Of a stretch of 64,000 nucleotides of DNA, positions 24,943 through 57,448 are shown one piece after another. Numbering within the stretch: position 1 is the stretch's first letter; every line of letters starts with the position of its first letter. The stretch is from Methanothrix sp. (GTDB lineage: Archaea; Halobacteriota; Methanosarcinia; Methanotrichales; Methanotrichaceae). The notes beneath the pieces were generated by a model. That model was not told the origin of the DNA. It did no database searches and worked only from the letters and a program-made list of their open reading frames with translations. The stretch spans positions 1 to 64,000 of the forward strand of contig NZ_JANIHG010000002.1 in assembly GCF_024518575.1 (NCBI RefSeq). The letters run 5' to 3'. Position numbers and translations under genes: made by a program.

Positions 24943-26559
24943 TCACATCCTCGTGTAGTCGTGTGGACTCTGCCCTGGCTTCGGCTTGAGCTCCTCTCTC
25001 TTAGCAGCTATCACATCATCCACTCTGAGGACCATTGTGGCGGCTTCTGCAGCTGACTTCACCGCCTGTAGCTTGACCTTGAGGGGCTCCACGACGCCGC
25101 CATCGAGCATGTCCGCAGTGCCTCCGTTATGCACATCAACCCCATACGCTTTGAGGCCTGCACCATGCTTCGATCTCAGCGCGACAATGGTGTCTATCGG
25201 ATCGAGACCTGCGTTCTCGGCAAGCGTCTTGGGTATGACCTCGACTGCATCTGCAAATGCCTCCACCGCGAGCTGCTCCCTGCCGCTGAGCGTCGCAGCA
25301 TACTCCCTCATCCTCTCAGCGACCTCAACCTCAGGAGCGCCGCCGCCTGGGACGATCTTCCTGTAGGATAGCACATCACCGACGACCATCAGGGCATCGT
25401 TTAGGGCCCTCTCCATCTCATCCAGGAATACCTCAGATCCACCGTGGACGACGATGGTCACCGCCTTCGGATCCCTGCATCCCTCGATGAAGATCATATG
25501 CTTGTCCTTCTTGACCTTCCTGTCCTCCACGACCTTTGCGTGGCCGAGATCCTGTGGGGATGCCTGCATCGGATCGCCTATGACCCTCGCGCCTGTCGCA
25601 AGGGCGAGCATCTTCATATCCTCGTCCTTGACTCTGCGTGCAGCAAGTATGTTGTGCTTTGCCAGGAAATGCGATGCAGCAACGCCGATCCCCTTCTGGC
25701 ACAGCACCACATTTGCTCCGGCCTTTGCTAGAGCCTCCACCTGTGCCTCCAGGACCTTCTTCTCACCCTCCTTGAAGCTCCTGAGACCCTCGACCTCTGA
25801 GATCGTTATCTTCGCATCCGTTCCAAGCTTCTTCAGCTCTAAAGTCGCATCCAGCAGGGCGATCCTCGCATCCTCGACCTTTCTGGGCATCTCGGGGTTC
25901 AGGCGCTCAAGCTCCAGGACGATGCCGTGCACGAGCTCTGTGTCAGCCAGACTTCCGCCGGTGATCTTCACTATCTTCACCCTGTGCTCAACATCCACCT
26001 TCCCGTTGTCCTCTATGGCGAGAGCTGCATCAACCACAATATCCGCCAGCTTCTCCTTCATCGTCTCGATGCCCTTGCCCGTCATCGCGGTCATCGCTAT
26101 CTTTCTCAGCACGTCCCTGTTCTCCCTGGTCACCTCGAGCGACATGCTCTCGAGTATCTCGCTGGCCTTCGCCTCAGCTGTCTTGTATCCCTGAACTATC
26201 GTGGTGGGGTGGATGCCTTTGTCAAGAAGCGCCTCTGCCTTCTTCAGAAGCTCTCCCGCAAGGACGACGGCTGTTGTGGTCCCATCTCCCACCTCATCAT
26301 CCTGCGCCCTTGCGACCTCCACGATCATCTTGGCGACTGGATGCTCTATATCCAGCTCCCAGAGTATCGTGGCGCCATCGTTCGTGACCACCACATCTCC
26401 ATTGTTGTCCACCAGCATCTTGTCCATGCCCTTCGGGCCGAGGGTTGTTCTCACAGCCTCTGCCACCGCCCTCGCAGCTGTTATGTTTTTATGCTGGGCC
26501 TCGCGTCCCACATCACGCTTGGCTCCTTCCTTTAAAATGATGATCGGATAGCCGCTCAT
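24943..26559 (-). CDS. thermosome subunit (group II chaperonin)
   Basis: A 538 aa CCT/TCP-1 type chaperonin. Signatures include [52 protein letters not shown] and the C-terminal [15 protein letters not shown]. Two starts are possible: ATG 26559 or TTG 26568; I use the ATG. A consensus BRE/TATA lies upstream at 26615-26628. It leads the operon with grpE, dnaK and dnaJ, putting group II chaperonin and bacterial-type Hsp70 under one promoter. A miniature transposable element sits directly behind that promoter. Confidence 0.97.
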
Positions 26560-26614
26560 TCCAGCCAAATCAACTCCTCCAAAGCCTGGCTGGGCTTAAA
26601 GCTGTTTGAGGTTC

Positions 26615-26636
26615 TATATAAATATTCCGAAAGCGG
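26615..26636 (-). promoter_or_regulatory. thermosome operon promoter
   Basis: On the minus strand the sequence reads CGGAATATTTATATA, a BRE followed by a near-perfect archaeal TATA box (TTTATATA, 26615-26622). Transcription would start near 26593, giving a leader of about 35 nt. The same CG-A-ATATTTATAT string occurs at about 57303-57317. The miniature element's 8-bp target duplication (26629-26636) begins 6 bp behind the TATA box. Confidence 0.75.
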
Positions 26637-26752
26637 TGCTGTGTTGAATAATTAAGAGCTCTAAGGCCGAGAGCTATCGATTTTTACTAGGATTGAAATT
26701 CGTATGAATCAGGCCTCTGCTATCGGATTCTCAAACATTATTCAACACAGCA
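26637..26752. mobile_element. 116-bp miniature inverted-repeat element (MITE), copy 1
   Basis: Terminal inverted repeats TGCTGTGTTGAATAAT (26637-26652) and its exact complement (26737-26752) are perfect over 16 bp. The 8-bp direct repeats GAAAGCGG flank it (26629-26636 and 26753-26760), a target-site duplication. There is no coding capacity. A second copy (57325-57440) has the same length, about 95% identity and a different 8-bp duplication. Mobilisation must come from a transposase elsewhere; 8-bp duplications occur in several IS families, so I do not assign one. Confidence 0.9.
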
Positions 26753-27098
26753 GAAAGCGGGGGGAATCACGATGTTATCAGTGACGCAAGTTCTGGCCGT
26801 GATGTGGGAGGCTGCGACCTCAAGGGCGCGGTAGTTAACGCAGAGAATCATCGCATGCGATAGTGGGATGTGCCAAAAAGACTGAAAGCATCTCCTGACG
26901 GGGCTCGAACTGCTGAACTGCTGCCAGGAATCGATGCCCAGTGGCAAGATGATTCGTGAAACCTGCGAGCATTCTGATGATATCCGTGACGCTGGGCATA
27001 CAACCAATGTACATGGACTGTGGTGATCTCGATGATCCGAGCGCCCCATTGGCCCGTAACGTTTAAAACCTAAAAGGACATGAGCAGTCTGTGCCGGT
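26753..27098. other. gap between MITE copy 1 and tRNA-Gly
   Basis: No supported gene. A frame around 26850-26960 is interrupted by stops and has no family resemblance I can defend. GTTTAAAACCTAAAAG at about 27060-27075 is a plausible TATA region for the tRNA that starts at 27099. Confidence 0.45.
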
Positions 27099-57084: not shown

Positions 57085-57234
57085 AGATAGTGCGATATCT
57101 GAGAGAACGCTCTATTTATTGCAACCTCGCCGTATGCCGGTTGCTGAATGCACTCACTCGCTCGACAGGAGCGCATAGCGTGACTGCTCGAGCAAGTTAT
57201 CGCTAAGAGCGTTGAGAGAATTGGGAAGATAGGA

Positions 57235-57281
57235 GGCAAAAGGCGGGTGTCGGAGGTGGGAACGCGTCCGGCTTTTGCCCA
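57235..57281 (-). ncRNA. candidate stem-loop RNA with anti-Shine-Dalgarno-like loop
   Basis: GGCAAAAG (57235-57242) pairs with CTTTTGCC (57272-57279), and after one mismatch CGGG (57244-57247) pairs with TCCG (57267-57270), giving a 12-bp stem. The minus-strand loop contains CCCACCTCCGAC. A consensus BRE/TATA (CGAAATATTTATATT, minus, TATA at 57303-57310) predicts a start near 57281, at the foot of the stem. That geometry argues for a transcribed small RNA. Its 3' end is not defined. It could alternatively be a structured end of the purB mRNA. Confidence 0.45.
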
Positions 57282-57324
57282 AACAAATTAAGGCAATTGT
57301 CGAATATAAATATTTCGGTCGTAT

Positions 57325-57440
57325 TGCTGTGTTGAATAATTAAGAGCTCTAAGGTCGAGAGCTATTGATTTTTACTAGGATTGCAATTCGTATGAATCCA
57401 GCCTCTGCTATCGGATTCTCAAACATTATTCAACACAACA
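57325..57440. mobile_element. 116-bp miniature inverted-repeat element (MITE), copy 2
   Basis: Same length and orientation as the copy at 26637-26752, with 6 mismatches in 116 bp by eye. The left terminal repeat TGCTGTGTTGAATAAT is intact; the right end has one change (ACAACA instead of ACAGCA). The 8-bp duplications GGTCGTAT flank it (57317-57324 and 57441-57448), different from those of copy 1, which proves independent insertion. As in copy 1, the duplication begins 6 bp behind a consensus TATA box. Confidence 0.9.
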
Positions 57441-57448
57441 GGTCGTAT

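Follow-up and report, generated by a model that had tools for sequence, protein, structure and literature searches.

The window analysed here, a stretch of 64,000 nucleotides, belongs to contig C21 in the draft genome of an archaeon (G000, 1.66 Mb). It harbors two copies of a short element, MITE-A, each placed beside a promoter; the promoter next to copy 1 precedes a chaperonin gene and the one next to copy 2 drives a candidate non-coding RNA gene (Table 1). The two copies were of equal length and 95 % identical, and their target duplications were perfect. The 16-bp ends (TGCTGTGTTGAATAAT) were perfect in copy 1, and copy 2 displayed a single mismatch, located in its right end (TGTTGTG...). 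A first-pass annotation of the window had proposed a 116-bp MITE family with 16-bp ends and 8-bp duplications, whose two copies were about 95 % identical and differently flanked. All of this held, the perfect ends being claimed for copy 1. What had been overlooked is that the distance to a TATA box is the same for both copies, and for copies throughout the genome.

Table 1. Coordinates of the elements, target duplications, promoter motifs and genes discussed (window positions unless a contig of G000 is named).
Feature	Position	Strand	Basis or remark
MITE-A copy 1	26637..26752	+	116 bp
Copy 1, left terminal inverted repeat	26637..26652	+	16-bp end pattern search
Copy 1, right terminal inverted repeat	26737..26752	-	16-bp end pattern search
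Copy 1, left 8-bp target duplication GAAAGCGG	26629..26636		direct reading
Copy 1, right 8-bp target duplication GAAAGCGG	26753..26760		direct reading
BRE-like hexamer GGAATA beside copy 1 duplication	26623..26628	-	outward positions 9-14
Copy 1 TATA box TTTATATA	26615..26622	-	outward positions 15-22; conserved in five MITE-free congeners
Group II chaperonin (thermosome) gene, downstream of copy 1 promoter	24943..26568	-	named by sequence reading
MITE-A copy 2	57325..57440	+	116 bp
Copy 2, left 8-bp target duplication GGTCGTAT	57317..57324		empty sites in congeners
Copy 2, right 8-bp target duplication GGTCGTAT	57441..57448		direct reading
BRE-like hexamer GAAATA beside copy 2 duplication	57311..57316	-	motif alignment
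Copy 2 TATA box TTTATATT	57303..57310	-	identical in congeners
Candidate non-coding RNA gene, driven by copy 2 promoter	57205..57300	-	about 100 bp; 98-100 % identity in five congeners
MITE-B copies, among others (L101, L238, L103)	C6:6918-7033, C72:19037-19153, C50:6669-6784

A search of the whole genome returned 42 matches to the 116-bp element, and a finer search brought the number of near-full-length MITE-A copies to 46. The 16-bp end pattern, allowing up to two mismatches, occurred 110 times, against none for a reversed control. An 8-bp duplication (cut-off of at most two mismatches) flanked 37 of the 46 copies; it was perfect in 29 and displayed one mismatch in eight. Among the 33 copies of exactly 116 bp, most were one to seven substitutions away from the consensus, and three older ones differed by 19 to 25. 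The predicted fold was a single long hairpin running through the ends. Being short, multicopy, bounded by terminal inverted repeats and devoid of a transposase gene, the elements meet the definition of MITEs; chance was far exceeded, and the 116-bp repeats are genuine mini-transposons that reside in a methane-producing archaeon and have moved recently. Each of the 45 copies whose location could be assigned was intergenic, as determined with a home-made gene caller whose gene starts are approximate.

Both window insertions were absent from all five congeneric genomes examined. The locus of copy 2 appeared there as one uninterrupted site, beyond which homology continued in several of the genomes; the empty site of G005 reads GGTCGTCTCACGGGACCTGTCCGAATAAG, to be compared with GGTCGTAT-CAGGGGACCTGTCCGAATAAC in the window after subtraction of the MITE and of one duplication. 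Copy 2 thus passed the empty-site check with clean single-copy sites. The situation at copy 1 was compatible with an empty site and no more, congener homology running through the promoter and stopping at the insertion site. The first-pass annotation had also called the family active. This remains an inference from low divergence and an intact transposase frame (see below), transposition itself being inferred.

Alignment of the flanks uncovered a common organization of the insertion sites. Read outward from one end of the element, they display the 8-bp duplication, a GAAA-rich, BRE-like stretch of 6 bp and then TTTATATA. On the minus strand, the site of copy 1 reads CCGCTTTC-GGAATA-TTTATATA and that of copy 2 ATACGACC-GAAATA-TTTATATT. 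The duplicated 8-mer itself showed little sequence preference, the motif being located outside the duplication and on one side only. It was encountered with the element in either orientation, with a mild bias for the right end to face the promoter (25 out of 37, P 0.047).

A two-sided mixture model fitted to the 37 sites reached a log-likelihood of 391, as compared to 76-118 for 15 sets of random positions. The resulting motif score covers outward positions 9-22, and a threshold of >5 bits was passed at the true position by 30 of the 37 sites and by 0.7 % of random window positions. When sites were shifted by 1-2 bp only seven to eight passed, and shifts of at least 3 bp left zero to two. The matrix was derived from the very G000 sites used in the main test, a circularity eased by leave-one-out scoring (28/37 passing on one side, 0/37 on the other) and by other species: used unchanged on MITE-A sites elsewhere, it recognized 12 out of 12 in G003, seven out of ten in G002 and two out of three in the more distant G016. 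A matrix-free check with the textbook octamer TTTATATA peaked at offset 15, where eight of the 37 sites matched at seven or more of the eight bases; every other offset gave zero to two sites. At most copies, the insertion point is consequently fixed within about 1 bp, just upstream of an archaeal BRE/TATA core promoter. This preference has exceptions, as no clear motif was found at seven of the 37 sites.

That this motif is a host core promoter was examined in genes devoid of MITEs. A de novo motif search upstream of such genes yielded ribosome-binding and start-codon motifs but no TATA box, and the matrix trained on MITE sites was applied instead, in a directed scan. Across 126 MITE-free upstream regions, sense-strand hits were most frequent 20-29 bp ahead of the start codon; this bin held 23 sense hits above 8 bits and no antisense hit. 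The peak corresponds to the spacing of leaderless archaeal genes, by which the duplicated 8-mer comes to lie between about -45 and -38. Both window promoters are conserved in MITE-free congeners, and the promoters are therefore older than the insertions. A gene start was found within 150 bp of 16 out of 28 insertion motifs, as compared to 65 out of 185 look-alikes (one-sided P 0.02), which is weak evidence since selection could also produce such an excess. A tRNA gene was expected downstream of MITE sites lacking a nearby start codon; ARAGORN found no match there.

The TATA box of copy 1 lies about 55 bp before the called thermosome start. A paralogous chaperonin promoter in G002 (C1:814500-815111; L161, L207) carries a MITE-A of its own with the spacing of window copy 1, and represents an independent insertion at the same type of promoter. 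As for copy 2, the candidate RNA and its promoter (57205-57316, minus strand) were 98-100 % identical in five congeners, neighbouring genes being about 80-93 % identical. The candidate RNA contains a GGCAAAAG/CTTTTGCC hairpin, its 5' part is matched over shorter lengths at further loci of these genomes and in other genera within the family, and the 57205-57316 segment had no match in Rfam.

The first-pass annotation had predicted that an autonomous partner exists elsewhere in the genome, and this was confirmed. A DDE_Tnp_1 search of the genome detected transposase pieces at two contig ends, each adjoining a 16-bp end identical to those of MITE-A. The two pieces (C24:1-529 and C42:16339-16939) share a 127-base overlap without any mismatch and form together a 1,003-bp element, IS-A, with a 329-aa frame; the element was broken by the assembly, so that the join is inferred from the overlap. 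The reading frame passes the right end into flanking DNA, and its stop depends on the site. The transposase belongs to family IS5 (NCBIfam NF033579, score 264 bits, cut-off 140) and also matched PF13737 and PF01609 above cut-off. The 8-bp duplication is merely suggestive of the ISH1 subgroup of this family. Further IS-A fragments and a second left end (on C18) indicate that more than one copy is present. Sequence common to MITE-A and IS-A was confined to the ends (16 bp, and up to 20 bp at one of them), and an origin of the MITE core as an internal deletion of IS-A was rejected on this ground. In G002 and G003, MITE-A copies were present and no intact A-type transposase was found, making the mobiliser uncheckable there. 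A transposase scan of the named genomes retrieved only distant Methanofastidiosum copies.

The surroundings of IS-A could be followed at a single site. Its end on C42 is flanked by CCTCTTGG, whose reverse complement CCAAGAGG opens a segment of C23 that reads CCAAGAGG-CAAACT-TTTAAGAA (motif score 7.9). The C23 sequence CCAAGAGG-CAAACTTTTAAGAA and the C42 flank lie on segments found next to each other in three congeners (G001, G003 and G005), beside an aspartate carbamoyltransferase gene named by sequence reading. From this adjacency it follows that IS-A probably inserted immediately upstream of the C23 promoter with the spacing displayed by the MITEs, although only one site supports it. The duplication CCAAGAGG on both sides of IS-A is likewise inferred, from C42, C23 and the congeners, for a split element at one site. 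No motif was seen at the visible C24 flank or on the C42 side, an absence to be expected only if the promoter lies on the opposite side. A later rearrangement has probably placed a MITE end where the other IS-A end belongs. The MITE copy concerned (L124, C23:8066-8181) and the C42 end (L085) split a sequence that is contiguous in three congeners, as an IS-A/MITE rearrangement would; a variant within the population or an assembly join is a possible alternative.

A sister family in the same genome, MITE-B, comprises elements that are about 116 bp long, have TGCTGTGTTGGATAA as ends and differ from MITE-A in their core; 8-bp duplications flank them at many sites. The complete congener G002 contains nine near-identical copies of a 988-bp IS with GGATAA ends, whose transposase displays 48 % identity to that of IS-A; an IS resembling this element is the likely partner of MITE-B. 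The same promoter targeting had been expected for B-type elements and was rejected: two of 20 B-type sites passed the promoter threshold as compared to 30 of 37 A-type sites (Fisher P 4e-7), and the B-type family became the control. The spacing is conserved in other species and absent from the sister family. B-type sites still displayed a one-sided AAAA at outward positions 11-14, with a log-likelihood of 132 as compared to 67 +/- 10 for random sites; the B-type set is small (20 sites).

A-type sites carry this A-tract as well. Positions 11 and 12 were A in 0.72 and 0.86 of them, as compared to 0.35-0.40 at host promoters chosen by their TATA box. The TATA columns agreed between A-type sites and host promoters, an agreement which is partly circular since the same matrix chose the hits. 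Since the A-tract is more pronounced where elements have inserted, being a promoter is not by itself enough to define the target. Located 2-4 bp outside the duplication and favoured by both types, the A-tract is likely read by the transposase itself. The simplest reading would be a two-part target, in which the transposases of both types read an A-tract and only type A requires a TATA box in addition.

According to the mechanism proposed here, the IS5-family transposase of IS-A would move the non-autonomous MITE-A in trans through the common 16-bp ends, pairing two such ends of either IS-A or a MITE. An 8-bp staggered cut would then be made immediately upstream of a BRE/TATA core promoter, such that the duplicated 8-mer would end where the A-rich BRE-like hexamer begins and the TATA box would start 14 bp from the element. 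As the duplication restores the promoter-adjacent sequence, the gene would keep its core promoter and the site would be open to a new insertion. This mechanism is very likely (probability about 0.87), its fixed-distance promoter targeting resting on good evidence. The elements, their ends, duplications and empty sites, the partner IS and the fixed spacing are established. The role of IS-A as mobiliser is inferred, there being no transposition assay for mobilisation in trans, and it is equally by inference that the spacing is attributed to integration and not to later selection. Against it stands the intergenic position of all 45 copies examined, by which selection against gene damage also acts.

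Several promoters appear to have received more than one element. On C54 (68096 and 68223) an old and a young MITE stand in series beside AAAAAATTTTTATAT, and G003 displays a MITE at the same site. At L089 (C18:251-390) and L197 (in G002), elements follow one another at intervals of about 8-9 bp next to a single promoter, which might reflect repeated insertion at a regenerated target.

Two alternatives dispense with targeting altogether. Insertion could be random, with purifying selection sparing only intergenic, mostly promoter, copies; the intergenic position of every examined copy, in a genome whose intergenic regions are short, speaks for it. Selection, however, cannot set a distance to 1 bp, and the signal is abolished by a shift of 3 bp or more; moreover, B-type elements of the same length in the same genome lack the TATA spacing. 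This explanation is very unlikely and was rejected on the 1-bp precision. Co-option, by which elements would be retained as upstream regulatory modules at a fixed TATA distance, finds support in the fixed spacing, the intact promoter and the mild orientation bias given above. It is nevertheless hard to reconcile with the occurrence of both orientations, with the absence of the window insertions from all congeners and the youth of most copies, and with a core promoter being the sole feature common to the sites; we hold it to be very improbable too.

Within targeting itself, the TATA requirement may arise because the transposase contacts TBP/TFB bound to the promoter, or because it reads the TATA DNA directly, and neither could be given precedence. 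Under direct reading, the A-tract and a TATA-like octamer constitute the target without any transcription factor, promoters being hit merely because they contain both. The A-tract preference of B-type elements in the absence of a TATA box favours it, indicating that some of the target is recognized without regard to promoters; so does the fact that insertion sites carry a stronger A-tract than host promoters do. On the other hand, the additional part of the A-type target matches the host TATA box in sequence and length (subject to the circularity noted above), and insertion motifs have a nearby gene start more often than look-alikes, which counts for little. Taken alone, direct reading falls slightly short of an even chance. 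The bolder reading is that the IS5 transposase docks on promoter-bound TBP/TFB, as Ty3 does on TFIIIB, TATA/TBP recognition having been acquired on top of an ancestral A-tract preference that the B-type family retains. Such tethering is a hypothesis, which we would not quite favour at present. As archaeal TBP, TFB and the IS5 transposase are small and soluble, the question of tether or readout is testable in vitro.

Fixed-distance targeting would suggest a mobile element which homes in on promoters and leaves them intact. If true, young MITEs would constitute a natural map of active core promoters, and it would be explained how a compact methanogen genome accommodates dozens of insertions with none of the 45 examined in coding sequence. 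Promoter-guided integration is known for bacteria (sigma-A) and yeast (Pol III), and no report was found for archaeal TBP/TFB. More generally, no precedent for promoter- or TATA-directed transposition in archaea was encountered in the full-text literature searched, most subscription papers being outside its scope.

Sulfolobus elements SM1-SM4 are archaeal MITEs (reviewed in PMC10969869) and, like MITE-A, are short, non-autonomous and present in tens of copies per genome; the archaeal-MITE sections of that review mention no fixed promoter-proximal target for them. IS-A and MITE-A resemble IS5-family IS and their MITEs in the NF033579 match, the DDE transposase Pfam domains and the short inverted ends, and no IS5 member is known to target core promoters, nor did the literature searched contain such a report. 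ISH6, an archaeal Mutator-like IS, has an AT-rich target with a possible promoter preference according to the authors (PMC3942029); its AT-rich motif AANATNTT lies inside the duplicated target, whereas that of MITE-A lies outside the duplication, on one side.

The closest functional parallel is provided by the prokaryotic Mutator-like elements TnGBS, ISLre2 and ISKra4, which insert upstream of sigma-A promoters, at 15-17 bp before the -35 box for TnGBS and related IS; contact with the transcription machinery was proposed for them by analogy with Ty3 and TFIIIB (PMC3942029). They share with MITE-A a fixed distance upstream of the promoter, and those with symmetric ends insert in both orientations. 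Their transposases are Mutator-like and their targets bacterial sigma-A promoters, in contrast to the IS5 transposase of IS-A and its BRE/TATA promoters. The test for a Mutator-superfamily transposase was not met, so that MITE-A/IS-A works like this group without being a member of it. For tethering by TBP/TFB, the conceptually closest model is Ty3, a yeast retrotransposon with position-specific integration beside promoters through TFIIIB (cited in PMC3942029). TFIIIB contains TBP. Ty3 differs in relying on a retrotransposon integrase, in being directed to Pol III genes and in residing in a eukaryote.
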